Shown: positions 862 through 48,343 of the stretch, one piece after another
Numbering within the stretch: the first letter of the stretch is position 1
Layout of the letters: each line of letters starts with the position of its first letter
Assembly: GCF_014205635.1 (NCBI RefSeq)
Contig: NZ_JACIIV010000008.1
Coordinates: forward strand, 62,001 to 126,000
DNA length: 64,000 bases
Origin: Polymorphobacter multimanifer
GTDB lineage: Bacteria; Pseudomonadota; Alphaproteobacteria; Sphingomonadales; Sphingomonadaceae
Direction: 5' to 3'
Position numbers and translations under genes: made by a program
The notes under the pieces: model-generated
The model's input: the letters and a program-made list of their open reading frames with translations, nothing else
What the model was told of the DNA's origin: nothing
Databases searched by the model: none

Positions 862-3390
862 ATGAGCGATTGCTACCGGATCGCCATCATTGGCTCCGGG
901 CCCGCGGGGCTGAGTGCAGCCGCGCGGGCCGCGGCGCTCGGGCTCAGCCATGTGCTGCTCGAGAAGACGGATCATCTCTCCGACACGATCTACAAGTACC
1001 AGAAGGGCAAGCATGTGATGGCGACGCCATCACAACTGGTGCTCCGCTCCGATCTCGCTTTCGACGCCGGCAAGCGCGAGACGGTGCTCGGACTGTGGGA
1101 CAACCAGACCGCCGACCACAAGGTGAATGTGCGGCGCCATGCCGAGATCAAGTCGATCGTGGGCACCGGCGACCCGATTCCCGGCTCGATCATGAAGACC
1201 GTGACGCGCAAGCGCGATGGCACCAGCGAAATTAAGGAGATGCAGCGCCTGGCGCCTCCCTACAAGCTTACACTGGCCGATGGCAGCGAAGTGATGGCCG
1301 AGACGGTGGTGCTGGCGATCGGCACCCAGGGCAATCCCAATCTCATGGGGTGCCCGGGGGGCAACCTGCCGCATGTGCAATATCAGCTCGACGATCCGGC
1401 GATGTACAATGACGAGCATATCTTCGTCATCGGCGGCGGCGACGCCGGGATCGAGAATGCGCTCGGGCTGGCCGGCGATGCGGCACAGGGCAATGTCGTC
1501 ACGCTCGTCAACCGTGGCGGCGAGTTCTCCACGGCCAAGGATGCCAATGTGAAGGCGCTGATGGCAGCACGCGACGCCGGGCGCATCTCGATCATGCTGG
1601 GCACCACGACGAGAAGCATAGAGCCCGGTTGGATCGTGCTCGAAACCGCCGATGGCGAGGTGCGCGCTCGCTGCGACCGGATCATCGCGCGCATGGGGTC
1701 GGCGCCGCCGCGCGGCTTTGTCGAAGCCTGTGGGGTGGAGTTTGCCTCGAACGACCGGCTGGCGTTTCCCAAGCTGTCGGCAGTGTTCGAATCGACAGCC
1801 CCCGGCATTTTCGTCATCGGGGCGCTCGCCGGCTATCCGCTCATCAAGCATTGCATGAACCAGGGGCATGATGTCGTCGAGTTCATCAACGGCAACACCA
1901 GCCTCAAGCCCGCCGACGAGCCGATTCTCGAAGCCAAGTTCGCCGGGCTGCCGGGCGGACGTTCCGTGGCGGACTGGCTCGAGCTGTTGCGGAGCAATGT
2001 CGGCATCCTGAACGGCATGAGCCCGCTGCAGATGCGCGAATTCATGCTCGACAGCCAGGCGCGGGCCTATCGCGCCGGTGACGTTATCTTCGAGCGCAAC
2101 GCGCCGGGTTCGTCGCTGTTCGGTATTGCCGAGGGGCAAGTGCTTGTAGAGGTGAACCCGAACGACCCGTCGATCACCGTGGGACTCGGCAAGGGCGAGA
2201 TCTTCGGCGAAGTGGGGCTGATTTCCGGGCGCAAGCGCGGCGCCACCATCCGCGCCGGCACCGACTGCATTCTTGTCGAAATCTCGCGCACCGCTGCCCT
2301 CAAGCTGATGAGCGCCGTGCCCAGCGCATCGCGCGAAGTCACCCGCGTCACCACTGAGCGCTCGTTGCTGCAGATCTTCAAATCGGGGCTCACTCCAGCC
2401 GATCTCAAGGATGCGGTGGCCGCCGCCAAGGTGGAAACCATGAAGGCGGGGCAGGCACTGATCAAGGAAGGTGAGGAGGGGGACGACATCTTCATCATCC
2501 GCTCCGGCTCAATGGTGGTGGAAAAGGCGATCGGCGGCAAGCCGGTGTTCCTGAGCTATGTGCCCGCCGGCTCCTATGTCGGCGAGATGGCAGTCATCGA
2601 TGGCGGGCGCCGCACTGCCACGGTGCGCGCAGCCGTGAAGAGCGATGTCATCCGCATCCCCGGCGAGGCGTTTCGGCCGCTGCTCGCCGCCAAGCCCGGC
2701 CTCACCGCCCGGCTGCGCGAAGAGATGTCGAGCCGCACCCAGCTCAACAGCTATATCGAATCGAAGAAGGACAGTTTCGAGGGCGTGGTGGACATGTACA
2801 CCGGCGTCGCCAATTTCCTGGTCGACAATGGCGTTGGCGAGGCCACCGATGTGCTGCTGATCGACGAGACGCTGTGCATTGGCTGCGACAATTGCGAAAA
2901 GGCCTGTGCTGACAGCCATGATGGCCTCAGCCGGCTCGATCGTGAAGCGGGGCGCACCTATGCGCATCTGCATGTGCCGACCTCGTGCCGGCACTGCGAG
3001 CACCCGCATTGCATGGCCGATTGCCCGCCCAATGCCATCCACCGCGGGCCGACCGGCGAAGTCTATATCGACGACACCTGCATCGGCTGCGGCAACTGCC
3101 AACGGAACTGTCCCTATGGCGTGATCCGCATGGACAAGGTGCCGCCCAAGCGGCCGTGGCTGATCAGCTGGATGCTCTTCGGCCAGGGGCCGGGGCCGGG
3201 CGAGCCCGGGCTCAAGTGGAAGAAGAAGCACGCCGACCCCGAAGCGCCCAAAAAGGCGATCAAGTGCGACATGTGCTCGGGCCAGTCCGGTGGCCCGGCC
3301 TGTGTGCGCGCCTGCCCAACTGGAGCCGCGATCCGCGTCAACCCCGAGCAATTCCTGTCGGTGGCGCTGCTCGACCGGAAGGGCGGCTGA
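862..3390 (+). CDS. FAD oxidoreductase fused to two cyclic-nucleotide-binding domains and a four-cluster [4Fe-4S] domain
   Basis: This 842-residue cytoplasmic protein appears to join three modules. Residues 1 to about 345 form a pyridine-nucleotide-disulphide-type flavoprotein: FAD motif GSGPAGLSAA near residue 11, a second dinucleotide motif VIGGGDAGIENA near 188 and a third conserved stretch GIFVIGALAGYP near 314. Residues about 395-500 and 515-625 are two cNMP domains, each with a phosphate-cassette-like motif (GEVGLISGRKRGATIRA near 445; GEMAVIDGGRRTATVRA near 574). Residues about 668-823 carry sixteen cysteines in the four-cluster ferredoxin pattern of DmsB/NrfC/HybA subunits. No N-terminal export signal is seen. 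The stop overlaps the start of the membrane gene (TGATG), so the two are translationally coupled. The likely role is electron transfer between NAD(P)H and a membrane partner, gated by cyclic nucleotide; that role is inferred, while the domains are visible. Confidence 0.85.
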   Translation: MSDCYRIAIIGSGPAGLSAAARAAALGLSHVLLEKTDHLSDTIYKYQKGKHVMATPSQLVLRSDLAFDAGKRETVLGLWDNQTADHKVNVRRHAEIKSIVGTGDPIPGSIMKTVTRKRDGTSEIKEMQRLAPPYKLTLADGSEVMAETVVLAIGTQGNPNLMGCPGGNLPHVQYQLDDPAMYNDEHIFVIGGGDAGIENALGLAGDAAQGNVVTLVNRGGEFSTAKDANVKALMAARDAGRISIMLGTTTRSIEPGWIVLETADGEVRARCDRIIARMGSAPPRGFVEACGVEFASNDRLAFPKLSAVFESTAPGIFVIGALAGYPLIKHCMNQGHDVVEFINGNTSLKPADEPILEAKFAGLPGGRSVADWLELLRSNVGILNGMSPLQMREFMLDSQARAYRAGDVIFERNAPGSSLFGIAEGQVLVEVNPNDPSITVGLGKGEIFGEVGLISGRKRGATIRAGTDCILVEISRTAALKLMSAVPSASREVTRVTTERSLLQIFKSGLTPADLKDAVAAAKVETMKAGQALIKEGEEGDDIFIIRSGSMVVEKAIGGKPVFLSYVPAGSYVGEMAVIDGGRRTATVRAAVKSDVIRIPGEAFRPLLAAKPGLTARLREEMSSRTQLNSYIESKKDSFEGVVDMYTGVANFLVDNGVGEATDVLLIDETLCIGCDNCEKACADSHDGLSRLDREAGRTYAHLHVPTSCRHCEHPHCMADCPPNAIHRGPTGEVYIDDTCIGCGNCQRNCPYGVIRMDKVPPKRPWLISWMLFGQGPGPGEPGLKWKKKHADPEAPKKAIKCDMCSGQSGGPACVRACPTGAAIRVNPEQFLSVALLDRKGG

Positions 3391-4370
3391 TGGCGACGCG
3401 GGCGCCCCGGACGATGAGCGGCAAACAGGAATCCCGCGCAATGCGCGGCAAACAGGAATCCCGCGCAATGCGCGGCAAACAGGAATCCCGCGCAATGCGC
3501 GGCAGGGCGGTGACGCGGGCGCCGCGCGACATTGCGCATGAAGGCTTCCTCACCCACGGCCGGATGCGCTGGGCGAAGGTAGCCGGCGGCCTGTCGGTCC
3601 TCGCGATCGTCGCCTATGCGCTCGTCGACCAGACGCCGCGGCCCAATGGCGGCACGGCGCTGGGCTATCTGCTCGGCACGCTGGGCCTGCTTCTCATCGT
3701 CTGGCTCAGCACGATCGGCCTCAGGAAGCGCATCATCACCACAAAACCCTATTCCCTGAAGGCGTGGACGAGCGCGCATGTCTATCTCGGGTTGTCGCTG
3801 ATCGTCATCGGCACGCTGCACGCGGGCTTCCAGCTGGGCTGGAACGTGCACACGCTCGCCTGGGTGCTGATGATGCTGGTCATCGTGTCGGGCATCTATG
3901 GCGTGGTTGTCTATGCCCGGTTGCCTGCCCAGCTTTCGGCCAATCGCAACGAGGCTACCCAGCCACAGATGCTGGAGGCGATCCGCACGCTCGACCGGCA
4001 GCTCGATACAGCCGCACAGCCGCTGGCCAGGGCCGAGGCCGATCTGGTGCGGCTGAGCCTCGAGGAGTGCGAAGTGTCCGGCGGTCTGTGGCAGCGGTTG
4101 ACCGCCCGCCACCCGAGGTGCGGCAATGCGCGGGCCCGGGACGCCATCCAGGGCCTGGTCAACGAGCAGATGCGGCGGGCGAAGCCCGACCCGGCGCTGA
4201 CCCAGATCCTGTTCCTGCTCGAGCGCAAGGATGCAGCCCTGGCGCAAGCGCGGCGCCATATCCGCATGAAGACCCAGCTGGAAATCTGGCTGTATCTGCA
4301 TGTGCCGATGACGATCGCGCTTCTGGTGGCGCTCACCGCGCACGTCCTCAGCGTGTTCATCTACTGGTGA
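3390..4370 (+). CDS. Dihaem cytochrome b-like membrane protein with a repeat-bearing N-terminus
   Basis: The protein has 326 residues. The start at 3390 overlaps the upstream stop (TGATG); the open frame continues further upstream, but that part is the shadow of the flavoprotein gene. Membrane helices are seen at about residues 62-80, 90-108, 128-147, 152-175 and 303-325. Two helices each carry a histidine pair 14 residues apart (H130/H144 and H304/H318), the spacing expected for two b-type haems. Between them, residues 185-295 form a charged helical segment. The first 55 residues are basic and include three identical 9-residue repeats. It probably passes electrons between the cytoplasmic Fe-S flavoprotein and the periplasmic decahaem protein. 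No close named family was recognised, and haem binding is inferred from the histidine spacing. Confidence 0.7.
   Translation: MATRAPRTMSGKQESRAMRGKQESRAMRGKQESRAMRGRAVTRAPRDIAHEGFLTHGRMRWAKVAGGLSVLAIVAYALVDQTPRPNGGTALGYLLGTLGLLLIVWLSTIGLRKRIITTKPYSLKAWTSAHVYLGLSLIVIGTLHAGFQLGWNVHTLAWVLMMLVIVSGIYGVVVYARLPAQLSANRNEATQPQMLEAIRTLDRQLDTAAQPLARAEADLVRLSLEECEVSGGLWQRLTARHPRCGNARARDAIQGLVNEQMRRAKPDPALTQILFLLERKDAALAQARRHIRMKTQLEIWLYLHVPMTIALLVALTAHVLSVFIYW
3420..3500 (+). repeat. Three perfect 27-bp tandem repeats inside a coding region
   Basis: Three identical 27-base units occupy 3420-3446, 3447-3473 and 3474-3500. Each encodes GKQESRAMR in frame. Every unit contains the near-perfect palindrome CCGCGCAATGCGCGG (7-base arms), part of which spans the unit boundary. 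Perfect identity indicates recent expansion or active homogenisation. There are no spacers, so it is not a CRISPR array. Confidence 0.95.
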
Positions 4371-4377
4371 TGGCCAA

Positions 4378-6360
4378 ATGAGCTTTATCGTCCGCCAGAT
4401 TGCCAAGCGCGCCGATGGAGGCGACATCATCCGCACGCGGTCGCTGGCGGCGCCCGAGATCAGCGTCGGCCGCGGCACCGATTGCGATATCCAGTTGGCG
4501 GACCTTGGAGTCATGCTGCGCCACGCCAAGCTGACACGGCTGGCGGGAGGGCTGGTGGCGGTGGAAGCAACCGGCGGCATTCCGCTGGAGATCGACGGCA
4601 AGTTCGTCAACCGAGCCGAGCTGCGAGTCGCCGAGCGCCCCATCATCAACCTCGCCAGTCACCGTCTGACGCTCGAGCCCGGTGACGCGGCCGATGACGT
4701 GGCGATCACGGCCGAGCGGGTAATTGCCGCCAGCGACGCCGCCGACGCCACTGCGGAGAACGAGATCTTCTCGCTCAAGGGCACGCTGCCGACCAAGCGG
4801 GCGATGGCCTGGACGCTTGGGCTGGTGGTCCTGCTGTTCGGGCTGGCGCTGCCGGTGTTCACCATGCTCGGCCGCGGCAATGTCGATCTGCCGGTGGACA
4901 TGGTAGCAGACGCCGCGCGGCCGATTCCGGTGGCGGTGCGGTCCGGCCTGCAGCCTGCACTGGGTGTAACGCCGGCGGCGGCGCGGACCGCGATGCAGCC
5001 CGATATCGTGTGGACCAGCGGGCCCATGTCGGGCGCGCATGCCGGCATCACCAACAGCTGCGGCGCTTGCCACCAGGCGGCGTTCGTCTCGACCACCGAT
5101 GCCGCCTGTACCGCGTGCCACAAGCCGAGTGCGGTGCCCGACCATGCCGCCGCCGACCGGATGGCGCGCGGGCGCTTCATCCCCAGCGGTGGGCTGGCGG
5201 CCGTGGAAGCCGGAATCCAAAGGGCAGTCGGGCTGGAAGAAGGCCGCTGTGCCGGCTGCCACAAGGAGCATGAAGGCCCCGGCGGTGCGCTGATGGTGGC
5301 GCAGAGCTTCTGCACCGATTGCCACACCGGGCTCGATGCACGGCTGACCGATGCGCGCATCGCCAATGTCGAAGGCTGGGAGAAGCATCCGCAGTTCAAG
5401 GCGACGCTGGTCGCTGCGGCTTCGGAAACGGCACCGCGCTTCGAACGGGTATCGCTCGATTCCCGGCCCAAGGAGGCCTCGGGGCTGATCTATCCGCATG
5501 AACTCCACATGTCGAAGACCAACAGCGTGGCGAACATGGTGCTGAAGCAGGGCCTGCCCGCCAGAGACGGCGCGTTGGGTTGCAACTATTGCCATGTGGC
5601 CGACAGCGATGGTGAGCGCTTCAAGCCGATCGAGATGGAGGCCAATTGCAGTGCCTGCCATGATCTGGCCTTTGCCCGCGATGGTGGCGTGGTACGCACG
5701 CTTCCGCATGGCAAGGCGCCGCAGGTGGCGGGGATCGTTCGGGATTTCTATTTGTCGCAGGCAGTGGCACCGCGTGCCAACGTGCAGCGGCTGGCGTTCG
5801 AGCGACGCGCCCCGGGGCGCATGGCCGAAGTGGAGGCGCAGCAGCTGCGGCTTTCGGGCATCGGCAATGCACGCAGCCGTGCCGAGGCGGCGGTGGATCA
5901 GATCTTCATCAAGGATGGTGTCTGTGGCGATTGCCATCAGGTGGAGCGGACGGGCGCGCCCCATCTGGCGGAACGCTGGAAGGTGATGCCGGTGACGATC
6001 AACGACCATTATCTCCCCAAGAGCCGCTTTCCGCACAGGAAGCACGACAGCTATGACGGGAAGACCGGCGATGCAGCGTGTGTGGCATGCCACAAGGGGG
6101 TGCCGACCTCGAAGGTGGCAACCGATGTGCTTCTGCCGCCGGTTGCGCAGTGCCGCGACTGCCACGGATCGAGCAACGTGAAGACCAATGTCGCTGCCAG
6201 CTGCGACACCTGCCATGGCTTTCACTTCGGCACGGATGGACCCGCCGCAACGCCGATCAAGGTTGCGGCGAGCACCGCACCCGCTGGCCACCGCAGCACC
6301 GGCAGTCGCTGGTCACCGTCGGCGCCCGCCGGCCCGGCGCAGGTCCGGGCGGGCGGATGA
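4378..6360 (+). CDS. FHA domain-decahaem cytochrome c fusion, membrane anchored
   Basis: The protein has 660 residues and starts seven bases after the membrane gene. Residues 1 to about 105 resemble a forkhead-associated domain (ISVGRGTDCDIQLAD near residue 29, then RHAKL), a module that normally binds phosphothreonine and would sit in the cytoplasm. A single membrane helix follows at about residues 141-163. The rest is predicted periplasmic and contains ten CxxCH haem sites (CGACH, CTACH, CAGCH, CTDCH, CNYCH, CSACH, CGDCH, CVACH, CRDCH, CDTCH) plus further histidines that could be distal ligands. It fits the broad cytochrome c3/multihaem class. The C-terminus is a low-complexity Ala/Pro/Gly tail. 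With its neighbours it would form a cytoplasm-to-periplasm electron conduit. The electron acceptor or donor is unknown. Confidence 0.85.
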   Translation: MSFIVRQIAKRADGGDIIRTRSLAAPEISVGRGTDCDIQLADLGVMLRHAKLTRLAGGLVAVEATGGIPLEIDGKFVNRAELRVAERPIINLASHRLTLEPGDAADDVAITAERVIAASDAADATAENEIFSLKGTLPTKRAMAWTLGLVVLLFGLALPVFTMLGRGNVDLPVDMVADAARPIPVAVRSGLQPALGVTPAAARTAMQPDIVWTSGPMSGAHAGITNSCGACHQAAFVSTTDAACTACHKPSAVPDHAAADRMARGRFIPSGGLAAVEAGIQRAVGLEEGRCAGCHKEHEGPGGALMVAQSFCTDCHTGLDARLTDARIANVEGWEKHPQFKATLVAAASETAPRFERVSLDSRPKEASGLIYPHELHMSKTNSVANMVLKQGLPARDGALGCNYCHVADSDGERFKPIEMEANCSACHDLAFARDGGVVRTLPHGKAPQVAGIVRDFYLSQAVAPRANVQRLAFERRAPGRMAEVEAQQLRLSGIGNARSRAEAAVDQIFIKDGVCGDCHQVERTGAPHLAERWKVMPVTINDHYLPKSRFPHRKHDSYDGKTGDAACVACHKGVPTSKVATDVLLPPVAQCRDCHGSSNVKTNVAASCDTCHGFHFGTDGPAATPIKVAASTAPAGHRSTGSRWSPSAPAGPAQVRAGG

Positions 6361-6490: not shown

Positions 6491-7354
6491 ATGCTGATTG
6501 CTCAGGTCACAGACATTCATCTGGGCTTCCAGCCGGATGACCCGGCGGAACTCAACCGCAAGCGCTTCGACGATGTGGTGAAGACGCTGCTGGCGCTTTC
6601 GCCGCGCCCCGATCTTCTGCTTGCCACCGGGGATATCACCGAGCATGGCACGATCGCCTCTTACGAGACATTCAAGGCGCTGTGCGATGCGCTGCCGTTC
6701 CCGACACTTCCGGCACTCGGCAATCACGATGATCGCGGCAATTTTTTCAAGGTGTTCCCCGACTCTCCGCGTGTCGGCGGCTTCCTGCAATATTGCTATG
6801 ATGCCGGACCGCTGCGGGTGGTCGTGCTCGACACGCTCGAGGAGGGGCGCCACGGCGGCAGCCTGGATGCAGGCCGTGCCGCCTGGCTCGATGCCCGGCT
6901 TGCGGAAGACGCACGGCCAACGATCGTCGTGCTGCACCACCCACCGATCGAGACCGGCAATGGGTGGATGACCGAGGATCTTGATGCAGGGTGGGTGGAG
7001 CGGCTGCGGGCTGTCGTGGAGAAGCATTCGCATATCATCCGGCTGGTCACCGGACATCTGCACCGCGCCATCGTCACCGGCTGGGGCGGCACTACGCTGG
7101 CGGTGTGTCCATCATCCGCGCCGCAGGTAGCGATCGACTTTCGCGAGCTTGATCCCGAAATGCCCGATGGCCGGGACATGATCGTGGCGGAAGGGCCGGG
7201 GTTTGCGCTGCATTACTGGACAGGCCGCGATCTCGTCACCCATTTCGGATCGGGTGGCGAGCATCCGGTGCTGGCACGCTACAATGCGCGGATGCAACCG
7301 ACGGTGCGCCACATTCTCGCCGAGCGGGTCGGCGAGAGCTGGGGGCACGACTGA
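6491..7354 (+). CDS. CpdA-like metallophosphoesterase (probable 3',5'-cyclic nucleotide phosphodiesterase)
   Basis: The protein has 287 residues with the calcineurin-like metal motifs in order: DIH near residue 8, GDITEHG near 46, GNHD near 77, VLHHPP near 150 and GHLHR near 187. This set and spacing match class III cyclic-nucleotide phosphodiesterases (CpdA), which hydrolyse cAMP or cGMP using two metal ions in the cytoplasm. It lies 130 bases downstream of the redox operon that contains two cyclic-nucleotide-binding domains, so a shared signal is plausible. Other members of this fold act on other phosphoesters, so the substrate is not certain. Its stop codon directly abuts the stop of dnaN on the other strand, with no base between them. 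Confidence 0.8.
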   Translation: MLIAQVTDIHLGFQPDDPAELNRKRFDDVVKTLLALSPRPDLLLATGDITEHGTIASYETFKALCDALPFPTLPALGNHDDRGNFFKVFPDSPRVGGFLQYCYDAGPLRVVVLDTLEEGRHGGSLDAGRAAWLDARLAEDARPTIVVLHHPPIETGNGWMTEDLDAGWVERLRAVVEKHSHIIRLVTGHLHRAIVTGWGGTTLAVCPSSAPQVAIDFRELDPEMPDGRDMIVAEGPGFALHYWTGRDLVTHFGSGGEHPVLARYNARMQPTVRHILAERVGESWGHD

Positions 7355-16385: not shown

Positions 16386-18249
<1,864 letters not shown>

Positions 18250-18253
<4 letters not shown>

Positions 18254-19221
18254 TGCGGTGCTCCCGGGAGCGTGGACGGATCGACCGTGCCGGTGGCGGG
18301 ATACTGTTCGGCAAAGTGATGTTCGACAGCCCAGAGATACCAGTTGTCGACAACAGTGCCGGTCAGCAGGATGCCGATGCCGCCCGTGAGCGTCGTCAGC
18401 ACCGCGAACCACCAGGCCCAGCGGTGAACCGATTCCATGGTGGCATTGAAGCCCATCGTCCAGCGCCAGAACAGCGCAGCGCGTTCTGACGCAGTGCCGC
18501 GATCGGTGATCTGCTCGATCTCGCGCTCGCCGCCGTAGCGGCCGACCGCGAGGATGGTCGCCCCGTGCATCGCGAAGAGCAGGGTCGAGCCGTAGAGGAA
18601 GGCGATCGAGAGGGCATGGAAGGGGTTGTAGAAGAGGTTGCCGTAGCGGATCGAGAAGGCTGCGGTCCAATCCAGGTGCGGGAAGATGCCGAAGGGCACG
18701 GCTTCCGACCAGGAGCCCATGGCGAGCGGACGGATGAAGCCGAGCACCAGATAGAGCCAGATGGCGGAGGCGAAGGCCCAGGCGACATGGGTGCCCATGC
18801 CGAGCTCGCGCGCGCGGCGATAGGTGCGTGCCCACCAGAGCAGGATCGAAACGGTGAGGAAGAAACCGGCGATCACCCACCAGCCACCCTCGGCTAGCGG
18901 TGGCAGGATCTGGAAGCCATAGCGGGCAGCGGGCGGCTCCAGCGACAACCAGAAGAACTGGCGGACGAACTGGATCGGGTCATAATTGACCGATGCCAGC
19001 ATGTTCATGCCCATGATGACGATGCTCAGGGTGCCGAAGATGAGCGAGGCGACGCCCAGCTTGCCGAGATAGAGGGGGCCGAGCTGGGCCCCGCCGATCT
19101 TGCCCATGAGATAGGTGAAGCCGAAGGGCCCGATGCGCGGATCGTTGTTCGGGCTGAGCGGGACGCCCGGCTCGAGTTCGCCGCGAAGCTGAACCTGGGT
19201 GAAGATGTTTTGGTAAGCCAT
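18250..19221 (-). CDS. pufM: Photosynthetic reaction centre M subunit
   Basis: The protein has 323 residues with five membrane helices and the family start [14 protein letters not shown]. The ligand-bearing stretches [14 protein letters not shown] (special-pair histidine), MHGATILA and [11 protein letters not shown] are visible; with PufL these hold the bacteriochlorophylls, bacteriopheophytins, quinones and iron of a type II reaction centre. The C-terminus extends beyond the fifth helix, as is usual when a PufC subunit is present. Fifteen bases separate it from pufL, and it overlaps pufC by four. Confidence 0.98.
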
Positions 19222-19236
19222 GGTTCAAGCCTCCCC

Positions 19237-20064
19237 TTAAGCCGACCAGATCGGCAGATTGAGCCACCAGGTCCACCACTCCGGCCAGCCACGCGACCAG
19301 AAGGGTCCGCTGAGGATGATGCAGATGGCGCTCCAGAAACCGGCATTGAGGGCCAGCAACAGGCCGACGCGGTGGATGCCGAGCGTGCCGACCGAATAGC
19401 CGATCAGATCGCGGAAGAAGGTATCCTCATATTCCGGTGACTTGACGTCCTCGCCCTTGGCAGGGTTGACCGCCGAGAGCACGAGCGCGCCGTGCAGGCC
19501 GAGCGCCAGAGTGGTGGTGAAGAAGAAGCTCACCGCCAGCATGTGCGCCGGATTGTAGTGGAAGTGGAGATATTGATAGCCGGTGTTGGACACCCAATCG
19601 AGGTGGGGGAAGATCCCGTAGGGGAAGCCCCAGCCCCAGGCGCCCATCAGCACCGGGCGAATGACGACCAGCGACACATAGGCGAAGATGGCGACGCCGA
19701 AGGCGACGGGGACATGATAGCCCATGCCGAGCTTGCGGCAGATTTCCACTTCGCGGAGAGCCCAGCTGCAGAAGGCACCGATCGCGCAGATGGTGACGAT
19801 CTGCCAGAGCCCGCCTTCGCGGAGCGGTGCCAGCGCCAGCCCGTAGCTGATGTCGGGCGGCGCGATGTTGATCAGCCAGGGGTTCCAAGTCGGGCCGATG
19901 GCGGCACCGTACAGGATCAGCGCCGTGCCCAGCGCTGCAAAGAAGATCGTCGTCACCCCGAAGAAGCCCACGTAAAATGGGCCCACCCAGAAATCGAAGA
20001 GGTCACCGCCGATCAGCGTGCCTCCGCGGACGCGATATTTCCGTTCGAAACTCAACAGCGCCAT
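19237..20064 (-). CDS. pufL: Photosynthetic reaction centre L subunit
   Basis: The protein has 275 residues, matching the family length, and begins [20 protein letters not shown]. Five membrane helices are seen. Conserved parts include FGIFPHLDW-type loop residues ([17 protein letters not shown]), [12 protein letters not shown] with the special-pair histidine, LHGALVLSA and the iron/quinone-side [11 protein letters not shown]. It binds the L-branch cofactors of the reaction centre in the inner membrane. A 140-base spacer with a strong hairpin separates it from pufA. Confidence 0.98.
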
Positions 20065-45759: not shown

Positions 45760-47270
45760 CGACTGGCCTCCGGGCGCTCGAAGGTGACACTGGCTTCTGC
45801 GGGGCGGGCGGTGTTGGTGCCGGGTACGCCATCGGTGGGGACGGCGACGATCTGGTAGCGGCTTTGTGCGGGGCCGGATGCCGGCGCTGCGACGAACATG
45901 CGGACCTTGGTGGCGGCATCGGGCTGGAGGGCGAGGCGAACACTGGTGCTGGCGGCGTCGCGGCTGCCGGATTCGGTCCAGAGCACTGCACCGGGCAGGC
46001 CGGAAAGGGTGACATCGACGGTGCGCGGCCGGGCTTCCATGTTGCGGAGCTTGACGGTGTAGCTGTTGCGGACCTGGCCATCGGACAGCTGCACGAAGCG
46101 GGGGTTGCGATCGGGATCGATGCTGATGTCGAGCCGCGCGCGCTCGCCGAGGCTGAACAGCATGGCGATCCCGATGCCGGCCCAGAGTGCGAAATAGATG
46201 AGGGTACGCGGGCGCAGCAGGGTCTTGATGACCGGCGTGGCGGTGCCGCCGGCCTTTTCGACAACGGCATCATCGAGCGTGGCATAGTCGATCAGTCCGC
46301 GCGGGCGGCCGATCTGCAGCATGACCTTGTCGCAGGCATCGATGCACAGCGCGCAGGTGATGCAGCCGAGCTGGGGGCCCTGGCGGATATCGATGCCGGT
46401 GGGGCAGACGGCGACGCACTGGTTGCAATCGATGCAGTCCCCAGTGCGGGCTGCCTTTGGCTGGAGCTGGCTAGCAATGGATTCGACCGGGTAATCGGCT
46501 TCGATGGTGCGCTTGAGGCCCTGGGTGCGCGGCTCGCCGCGCCAATCCTTGTAGGTGACGATGAGCGATTTCTCGTCGAGCATTGCCGTCTGGATGCGCG
46601 GCCATGGGCACATGTAGATGCACACCTGCTCGCGCATGAAGCCGCCGAGGACGAAGGTGGTGGCGGTGAGCACGCCGACGGTGGCGTAGGCGACGAACGC
46701 CGCTTCGCCCTGGACAAAGGCTGCAAACAGGGTGGGGGCGTCGGCGAAATAGAAGATCCAGGCGCCGCCGGTGGCGACGGCTATGGCGAGCCAGATGGCG
46801 TATTTGGTGGAGCGTCTGGCCAGCTTGGCGGGCGACAGGGGGGCGCGGGCCAGCTTGATCTGGGCGTTGCGGTCACCATCGATGAAGCGTTCGACATGGA
46901 CGAACAGATCGGTCCACACGGTTTGCGGGCAGGCATAGCCGCACCAGGCGCGGCCGACCGCCGAAGTGACGAGGAAAAGGCCGATGCCCGCCATGATGAG
47001 CATGCCGGCAACATAGTAGAATTCCTGCGGCCAGATCTCGACCGAGAACATGTAGAAGCGGCGGTTGGCGAGATCGACGAGCACCGCCTGATCGGGCGCA
47101 TAGGGGCCGCGGTCCCAGCGCAGCCAGGGCGTGACGTAGTAGATCGTCAGCGTGACCGCCATGATGATCCATTTCAAGCGCCGGTAGAAGCCGGTGATGG
47201 CCTTGGGATAGACGCCCTTGCGCTTCTCGTAGAGCGCGCTGTTCAGGCTGAAGAGACTATTCGTCGACAC
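45756..47270 (-). CDS. ccoG: cbb3 oxidase accessory ferredoxin protein CcoG (FixG, RdxA)
   Basis: The protein has 504 residues. Several membrane helices flank two [4Fe-4S] motifs, CIDCNQCVAVCPTGIDI and CITCALCIDACDKV, and CGYACPQTVW and CPWPRIQTAM are conserved in the family. CcoG acts as a copper(II) reductase during oxidase assembly. The GTG at 47270 follows GAGG with nine bases between and begins STNSLFSLNSALYEKRKG; the ATG at 47342 lies well inside ccoP and is rejected. It overlaps ccoP by 14 bases. Confidence 0.95.
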   Translation of the reverse strand: MSTNSLFSLNSALYEKRKGVYPKAITGFYRRLKWIIMAVTLTIYYVTPWLRWDRGPYAPDQAVLVDLANRRFYMFSVEIWPQEFYYVAGMLIMAGIGLFLVTSAVGRAWCGYACPQTVWTDLFVHVERFIDGDRNAQIKLARAPLSPAKLARRSTKYAIWLAIAVATGGAWIFYFADAPTLFAAFVQGEAAFVAYATVGVLTATTFVLGGFMREQVCIYMCPWPRIQTAMLDEKSLIVTYKDWRGEPRTQGLKRTIEADYPVESIASQLQPKAARTGDCIDCNQCVAVCPTGIDIRQGPQLGCITCALCIDACDKVMLQIGRPRGLIDYATLDDAVVEKAGGTATPVIKTLLRPRTLIYFALWAGIGIAMLFSLGERARLDISIDPDRNPRFVQLSDGQVRNSYTVKLRNMEARPRTVDVTLSGLPGAVLWTESGSRDAASTSVRLALQPDAATKVRMFVAAPASGPAQSRYQIVAVPTDGVPGTNTARPAEASVTFERPEASR

Positions 47271-48168
47271 GTGTGCTCGCCTCGGCCACTTCTGCGGGCA
47301 CGGGCGGGGGGCCGGCCTCGCCGCCGCCGAGCGAATGGACATAGGCAGCGAGCATCTTGATGGTGACGGGATTGAGCCGGGCGTTCCAGCGGGGCATCAC
47401 GCCGCCACGGGCATAGGTGATGGTGTGCTTGAGGGTCTTGCGGTCCCCGCCGTAGAGCCAGATGCTGTCGGCGATGTTGGGAGCGCCGAGATCGCGATTG
47501 CCCTTGCCATTCTCGCCATGGCAGGCGGCGCAATTGTCAGCGAACACGGTGGCCCCGGCGAGGCTCGGCTTTTCGAGGCCGGACAGGCTTCGGACATGGG
47601 TGATGACCGCCTCGATTTCGGCATTGCCGAGGATCTCCCCGAATGCCGGCATCTGTGAATTGCGCGTCTCGTCGTAATCGGGGTTGCGGATGCCGTTGAT
47701 CAGCGTGTGCTCGATGGCGCCAAGATCACCGCCCCAAAGCCAGTCATCGTCGTTGAGGTTGGGATAGCCGACCGAGCCGGCGGCACCGGCGCCGTGGCAT
47801 TGCACGCAATGCACCTTGAAGGCGGCGCGGCCGCCCTCGATGGCCTGTGCCAGCAGCGCCGGATTGGCGGGCAGTTGCGCGAGGGGCGTGATGGCAATGG
47901 CCTTGAAGACGGGCGCACGGCGTGACGTGTCGGCTGCCATCTCCTTGGCGAGATCACCGCGGCTCGACCAGCCGAGGGTGCCCGGCGTGGCGGAGTTGGC
48001 GAGCGGGATGGCGGGGTAGAAGATAACATAGCCGACGGCAAAGACGATGCAGAGGATGAAGGTGATGAGCCACCAGCGCGGCAGCGGCGTGTCCAGCTCC
48101 TCGATACCGTCCCATTCATGGCCGACGGTGGGTGTGCCGGTGGCTTCGTCGATGTGTTTATGCGCCAT
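47257..48168 (-). CDS. ccoP: cbb3-type cytochrome c oxidase subunit III (dihaem cytochrome c)
   Basis: The protein has 303 residues. A short cytoplasmic N-terminus HEWDGIEELDTPLPRWW (family signature) and one membrane helix precede two CxxCH domains (CVQCH and CAACH). It takes electrons from soluble cytochromes to CcoO/CcoN. The ATG at 48168 is chosen because GAGGA lies eight bases upstream; 48174 would be too close. It overlaps ccoQ by 11 bases. Confidence 0.96.
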   Translation of the reverse strand: MAHKHIDEATGTPTVGHEWDGIEELDTPLPRWWLITFILCIVFAVGYVIFYPAIPLANSATPGTLGWSSRGDLAKEMAADTSRRAPVFKAIAITPLAQLPANPALLAQAIEGGRAAFKVHCVQCHGAGAAGSVGYPNLNDDDWLWGGDLGAIEHTLINGIRNPDYDETRNSQMPAFGEILGNAEIEAVITHVRSLSGLEKPSLAGATVFADNCAACHGENGKGNRDLGAPNIADSIWLYGGDRKTLKHTITYARGGVMPRWNARLNPVTIKMLAAYVHSLGGGEAGPPPVPAEVAEASTRVDE

Positions 48169-48343
48169 GATCATCGTCCTCGAAGATGCTGTTGGCGGCG
48201 CGGTCCATGTCGGCGCTGGCTCCCTTGCGGAAGGTCCAGCCGACAAGGCAGAGGAAGATGCCACCGAGCATCACCAGCCCCCAGCTGTCGGCGAAGTGGC
48301 GCAGCGCGTCATAGGTCTCGACCGCCGTCATACCCAGGGTCAT
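48158..48343 (-). CDS. ccoQ: cbb3-type cytochrome c oxidase subunit IV
   Basis: The peptide has 61 residues with one membrane helix ([18 protein letters not shown]) and an acidic C-terminus. The start at 48343 overlaps ccoO by four bases; the internal Met at residue 5 is an alternative. CcoQ stabilises the interaction of CcoP with the CcoNO core. Order NOQP is standard. Confidence 0.93.

Follow-up and report, generated by a model that had tools for sequence, protein, structure and literature searches.

We analyzed a 64,000-nucleotide stretch of Polymorphobacter multimanifer DNA (NCBI RefSeq assembly GCF_014205635.1, contig NZ_JACIIV010000008.1, positions 62,001 to 126,000), referred to here as the window, focusing on the operon near its beginning and in particular on the gene at positions 4378 to 6360 of the plus strand. 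This gene is a single open frame encoding 660 residues, and its product joins a forkhead-associated (FHA)-like domain through one membrane helix to a c-type cytochrome with ten CxxCH motifs. It is preceded on the same strand by genes for a flavoprotein (862 to 3390) and a membrane cytochrome b subunit (3390 to 4370, overlapping the preceding stop codon), and it is followed by a metallophosphoesterase gene (6491 to 7354).

The architecture given in the initial annotation, with an FHA-like first 105 residues, one helix and ten CxxCH sites, was confirmed by profile searches, hydropathy and an alignment of 83 homologues. The FHA-like cytoplasmic domain (residues 1-105) is encoded at positions 4378 to 4692. 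The membrane helix (residues ~140-166, positions 4795 to 4875), supported by hydropathy and alignment, has Lys and Arg on its N-terminal side, and the periplasmic decahaem part (residues ~207-620) occupies positions 4996 to 6237. According to a simple hydropathy scan, 80 of the 83 homologues have exactly one membrane segment, located after the FHA part and ahead of the first haem site. Ten CxxCH sites are present in 44/44 sequences of the family comparison, and the haem Cys and His columns are found in all 83 distinct homologues of the wider alignment; the proteins of loci L159 and L160 have nine sites by the exact pattern. This conservation rules out a chance origin of the haem motifs, and a gene-calling artefact can be dismissed as well, since the 83 aligned open reading frames (ORFs) each contain all parts of the fusion. 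Ten additional periplasmic His residues (positions 221, 256, 298, 337, 374, 377, 444, 553, 556 and 616) are retained in 82-83 of the 83 homologues. Ten haems with ten conserved distal His residues imply bis-histidine ligation throughout, and with it an electron wire rather than an enzyme. The AlphaFold model, built with four related rows only, reached a mean pLDDT of 33.6 and was too poor for use.

The window protein alone scored 18.6 bits against PF00498, just below the cut-off of 20.7, and the FHA family was matched at E<=0.01 by 32 of 35 aligned homologues. A profile of the FHA-decahaem family recovered GarA (E 1.8e-5) and OdhI (E 4e-5) among the PDB sequences, so that the likeness to the GarA/OdhI and YscD-type FHA folds is detectable from sequence. 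Phosphothreonine readers of this fold rely on the Ser of an SRxH motif and on the Asn ahead of the conserved Gly of an NG motif. With the register of the Ser position set by the GarA alignment, the Gly31-Arg32 pair is invariant and the Arg of this GR motif is kept in 83/83 homologues, but the Ser is present in just four of them and is replaced by Met46 in the window protein; in this the family differs from GarA and OdhI, having lost the Ser in 79/83 members though the Arg is retained. Asn is found in 34/83 homologues, with Asp at that position in 27 of 44 sequences of the family set, and Arg, Ser and Asn occur together in only 3/83. The phosphothreonine control proposed in the initial annotation is therefore not supported, and signalling of this type was largely rejected; the absence of conserved phosphothreonine-binding residues, which that annotation named as a refutation, is largely what the homologues show. 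Because these residues are not kept, and no kinase was seen among the annotated recurrent neighbour-gene clusters of the loci, we read the domain as a phosphate-independent dock, which would probably keep the wire on the cytoplasmic complex.

Gene organization was compared in 79 loci. Forty were taken from the family sample, in which 73 of 199 genomes had an FHA-decahaem match (weak and partial in G004 and G176); 32 came from the 34 strong matches in the class outside the family (G205 and G420 were left out); and seven came from the 15 matches of a phylum search of 398 genomes, these seven comprising two from the same class and five from other classes. The comparison genomes include drafts with contig breaks, and ORFs were extended to the first possible start, which accounts for negative gaps between genes. 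A lack of conserved gene order, which the initial annotation had named as a refutation, was not observed: flavoprotein, cytochrome b and FHA-decahaem genes follow each other on one strand in 75/79 loci. In two of these 75 loci, both from one genus, the flavoprotein and cytochrome b form a single protein (L159, 3850-7206; L160, 3052-6423), and in L159 the FHA-decahaem gene begins 797 bases after this fused gene. A recurrent cluster of neighbour genes lying on the opposite strand over the operon genes (cluster 7) was taken, by its position only, to consist of spurious ORFs.

The flavoprotein combines a YpdA/TrxR-like fold carrying FAD and NAD(P) motifs with two cyclic-nucleotide-binding domains and a C-terminal ferredoxin module, as identified by Pfam and NCBIfam profiles and by alignment. 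The glycines of the FAD motif are kept in 77/79 sequences, the other two having gaps. PF00027 matched two stretches with 123.5 bits, and both domains keep the Gly-Glu...Arg cassette (Glu450/Arg459 and Glu575/Arg584) in 79/79 sequences. Equally invariant are sixteen ferredoxin Cys residues, the number expected of a DmsB/NrfC-type ferredoxin with four [4Fe-4S] sites; the NCBIfam equivalog cut-offs of such subunits were not reached. Membership of the YpdA/thioredoxin reductase family was also rejected (TIGR04018, 116.4 bits vs 339.9), leaving a related fold only.

In the cytochrome b subunit, four His residues arranged as two pairs (His130/His144 and His304/His318) are kept in 82/82 sequences, as is His154, a pattern from which we infer two b haems. 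No Pfam family was matched above its cut-off, and membership of the cytochrome b561/Ni-Fe hydrogenase cytochrome b family was rejected, PF01292 scoring 10.3 bits against 30.1. The AlphaFold model contains helices, but with four related rows its mean pLDDT was 56.6, again too poor for use; a Foldseek search with this model gave no match at E<=0.001, and a PDB profile search with the alignment gave no credible relative. A 27-bp tandem repeat of 3.4 copies (window positions 3414-3504) lies inside the unconserved N-terminal coding part of this gene.

The metallophosphoesterase matches PF00149, and its metal-site residues are kept in 41/41 sequences. It is closest to the cyclic-nucleotide phosphodiesterases of the CpdA/SpdA kind, below equivalog level (SpdA, 119.2 bits vs 400; CpdA, 78 vs 225). 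Within the family its gene belongs to the conserved set, being the next one after the FHA-decahaem gene in 37/40 loci.

Co-occurrence was assessed in 385 genomes of the class. The FHA-decahaem profile matched 66 of them at E<=0.001; 37 reached E<=1e-20, and the remaining weak matches were partial, to haem or FHA stretches. Both the cytochrome b subunit and the FHA-decahaem protein were detected at E<=1e-20 in the same 37 genomes, 348 having neither, where the draw of 385 genomes is assumed to be identical between searches (the listed handles agree) and the counts ignore shared ancestry.

Three further families recur among the neighbours in the 79 loci, and they are referred to below as the outer module. 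An HbpS-like protein, present in 34 loci, carries PF03928 in the tested member and, by eye, a lipobox in the copy of the window genome. A protein of ~620 residues, present in 43 loci, looks like an outer-membrane barrel, having by eye a signal peptide and an aromatic C-terminus; of 21 members scanned, three matched alginate export (best E 8.5e-6), and no other family was matched by more than one member. The third is a giant cytochrome of ~1,300 residues, found in 43 loci, with ten CxxCH sites in all except truncated copies, LVIVD repeats in the tested member, 14 invariant His residues outside the CxxCH sites (17 sequences) and a plain Sec-type N-terminus which, read by eye, has no lipobox. When the alignments of the giant cytochrome and the barrel were used as profiles against the PDB, no credible relative came up, and the weak likeness of the giant cytochrome to ExtM (NF040943, 60.7 bits against a cut-off of 800) was not accepted as membership. 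In some class loci (L121, L125 and L128, for example) the outer-module genes come after the FHA-decahaem gene, and in some family loci (L044, for example) they face it. The window genome encodes a tetrahaem cytochrome, an HbpS-like protein, a putative barrel and a decahaem cytochrome of ~1,370 residues with LVIVD-bearing relatives; genes resembling by eye those for sulphite reductase and uroporphyrinogen methyltransferase adjoin this module (L172, 12685-15770, contig C2).

The giant cytochrome was present in 20/20 tested positive relatives, chosen from the 73. Among 40 relatives with no FHA-decahaem match (37) or a weak one (G004, G176 and G091), it was detected once, in G615, where the matching pieces spanned <=36 residues with E-values no better than 4.6e-4 and were taken as spurious. 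In the class it was found at E<=1e-30 in 29/385 genomes, all of them among the 37 with the FHA-decahaem protein. Plasmid pMSHV of Sphingobium herbicidovorans carries the eight genes within ~16 kb; the position and size of two "hypothetical proteins" served to assign them as the barrel and the cytochrome b. Twelve Sphingobium records of the plasmid collection, several of which are near-copies of one another, contain the FHA-decahaem gene, and the same 12 contain the full-length flavoprotein and giant cytochrome genes; one Sphingopyxis plasmid has the giant cytochrome gene and no FHA-decahaem gene on that record. The compactness of this eight-gene unit, and its location on large plasmids in the Sphingobium records, make it amenable to gene removal tests.

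The initial annotation had proposed a phospho- and nucleotide-controlled electron conduit. Its phospho part is not supported; the conduit itself is favoured by the anatomy of the proteins and their invariant cofactor residues, the gene order, the fusion of flavoprotein and cytochrome b in L159 and L160, the co-occurrence in the class, the linkage to the outer module and the cytochrome c maturation genes beside the operon in the window genome. We consider it probable that the products of the genes at positions 862 to 6360 form the inner-membrane half of an electron conduit that spans the envelope and draws on NAD(P)H, with cyclic nucleotides as its probable gate. NAD(P)H would reduce the FAD of the cytoplasmic flavoprotein; the four [4Fe-4S] clusters would relay the electrons to the two b haems, which would carry them across the membrane into the decahaem wire, and the outer module would receive them from there. 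Outward electron flow of this kind spends NAD(P)H and membrane potential, and should therefore need a gate. Cyclic nucleotides are suggested for this role because the input subunit has two intact cassettes and, in one family, a phosphodiesterase-like gene is the neighbour; the two cyclic-nucleotide domains would then be the likely gate and the phosphoesterase the likely reset. Nucleotide control of the conduit is thus a plausible part of the original proposal. With more reserve, and as a tentative generalization, we propose that a quinone-independent, second-messenger-gated export of electrons may exist across many alphaproteobacterial families, running from NAD(P)H through the FHA-docked decahaem protein to an unrecognised, exchangeable outer decahaem module.

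Several observations weigh against this interpretation. The poor AlphaFold models of the FHA-decahaem and cytochrome b proteins mean that no fold or complex backs the chain, and the third Gly of the flavoprotein NAD(P) motif is Ala in 20/79 sequences. As for gene order, L140 is cut by a contig end, L141 carries the flavoprotein gene at the distant end of the cluster, and neither L142 nor L144 has a flavoprotein gene beside the cytochrome b gene. In L144 (5396-7260) the cytochrome b gene is preceded by a small cytochrome-like gene, so that the input module may be exchangeable. Outside the family the metallophosphoesterase gene is adjacent in 0/39 loci, a few of them truncated shortly beyond the FHA-decahaem gene (L156 has one 4.7 kb away), and the machine can therefore do without it. 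The barrel was called from the look of its sequence, a surface position of the giant cytochrome is conjectural, and the outer module of the window genome is on another contig (C2), away from the operon. Finally, the giant cytochrome is missing in 8 of the 37 class genomes (G222, G249, G257, G302, G317, G420, G453 and G573). In G257, G302, G317 and G573 another cytochrome and barrel-like pair adjoins the operon, which suggests that the outer half of the conduit is exchangeable; the other four are unexplained. At the loci L129, L131, L132 and L144, a five-CxxCH cytochrome and a barrel-like protein (clusters 17 and 18) replace the giant cytochrome beside the operon.

The same proteins could be read differently. 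Instead of an extracellular wire, they might form a reductase system of the periplasm or outer membrane, in which the barrel would be a substrate channel and the cytochrome b may also exchange electrons with quinone. Possible substrates are peroxide, a metalloid oxyanion, a haem protein or ferric iron destined for assimilation. The best NCBIfam match of the giant cytochrome, ExtM, belongs to a Geobacter selenite/tellurite cluster, and its Sec-type N-terminus without a lipobox, its HbpS-like partner and a feoB gene near the operon would suit such an enzyme. However, the ligand count leaves no open haem site in the FHA-decahaem part, the giant cytochrome has its own set of invariant His residues outside the CxxCH sites, and no catalytic family was recognised in the profile searches of the outer-module proteins, so that we regard a reductase as unlikely, if still worth weighing.

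We give less credit to the same machine working in reverse, in which an outside or periplasmic donor such as Fe(II) would pass electrons through the haems inward to NAD(P)+ or quinone. Some evidence of reversibility is cited for the Mto/Mtr conduits in PMC10734462, where an FHA-annotated ten-haem cluster is also tabulated for 27/87 iron-oxidising Gallionellaceae genomes, and the window genome has both feoB upstream and pufLMC. Yet the Gallionellaceae cluster is only a possible homologue of the window protein, and electron entry to NAD+ against the membrane potential needs energy, no coupling subunit being seen among the annotated recurrent neighbours; this direction is improbable. Far more improbable still is a redox sensor, in which the haems would sense the redox state of the envelope and signal it along the helix to the FHA domain for the control of partner proteins, electron transfer being secondary. 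FHA domains are usually signalling modules, and the protein crosses the membrane by one helix in a receptor-like manner. Nevertheless, the loss of the phosphothreonine residues and the lack of a kinase in the neighbour clusters speak against a sensor, ten haems far exceed what one needs, and the partner is a chain of flavoprotein, ferredoxin and cytochrome b.

Outward conduction by the proposed NAD(P)H-fed conduit was also compared to known systems. Eukaryotic NADPH oxidases and ferric reductases pass electrons from cytoplasmic NAD(P)H and FAD to two b haems across the membrane. In the window system this scheme would be extended by a ferredoxin relay of four clusters and by a wire of ten haems, and the membrane subunit, as described above, reaches the cut-off of no Pfam family. 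With the MtrCAB, MtoAB and PioAB conduits (PMC10734462, PMC13322032), the window system shares a ten-haem periplasmic protein, a barrel-like protein and a further multihaem cytochrome. In contrast to Mtr-type systems, the window decahaem protein is not of the MtrA/DmsE family (TIGR03508, 16.9 bits vs 192.2), and none of the 21 barrel-like proteins matched the MtrB/PioB family at E<=1. The feed also differs: in the window it is a flavoprotein of the NAD(P)H type that is cytoplasmic and carries cyclic-nucleotide domains, and in the Mtr-type systems it is a quinol-oxidising CymA-type protein. A Methylobacter conduit, in the passages of PMC13322032 considered an MtrA/MtrB-type unit, does not resemble the window system. 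The Geobacter ext cluster extHIJKLMNOPQS (PMC5877670) likewise has a porin-like protein, multihaem cytochromes and iron-sulphur and cytochrome b subunits; its gene list, in the available portion of that paper, contains neither an FHA fusion nor a cyclic-nucleotide flavoprotein, and its ExtM is given 12 haems, against the ten CxxCH sites of the giant cytochrome. Because membership of the Mtr, Ext, YpdA and b561 families fails at the tested features, we file the window system as a separate variant of the trans-envelope multihaem conduits.

The initial annotation did not recognise a described system here, which fits the open-access literature with one qualification. We found there no paper on FHA domains with decahaem, multihaem or c-type cytochromes, except for an uncommented entry in Table 1 of PMC10734462, in the portion available: cluster 403, a "Forkhead-associated protein" with 10 motifs. 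The FHA annotation and the ten haem motifs are shared with the window protein, and cluster 403, compared by this table entry, is possibly the same fusion. Nor was any trans-envelope electron conduit found described for sphingomonads in the open-access literature, where Sphingomonas candidates were judged by title. Sphingomonads and related bacteria are known mainly for aerobic degradation and for photoheterotrophic growth. If the proposed conduit works as described, a direct route from NAD(P)H to the envelope, controlled by cyclic nucleotides, would add a new means of disposing of electrons or of reducing metals and metalloids, and a second messenger would be directly coupled to an electron flow that resembles respiration.

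Other genes of the window and its surroundings were also identified. The 5' part of ccmF, encoding a cytochrome c haem lyase, occupies positions 1 to 690 of the minus strand, divergent from the operon, and dsbE, a ccmH-like gene and ccmI continue beyond it outside the window as part of a cytochrome c maturation set. The feoB gene for a ferrous iron transporter (L176, 5745-7598) lies ~4.4 kb before the window, near the operon, and is absent from the annotated recurrent neighbour clusters. The reaction-centre genes pufL, pufM and pufC (17093-20064, minus strand) pass the NCBIfam cut-offs, and the organism is therefore a probable anoxygenic phototroph. At window positions 47260-48270, on the minus strand, a protein with two CxxCH motifs resembles by eye the CcoP/FixP subunit of cbb3 oxidase.

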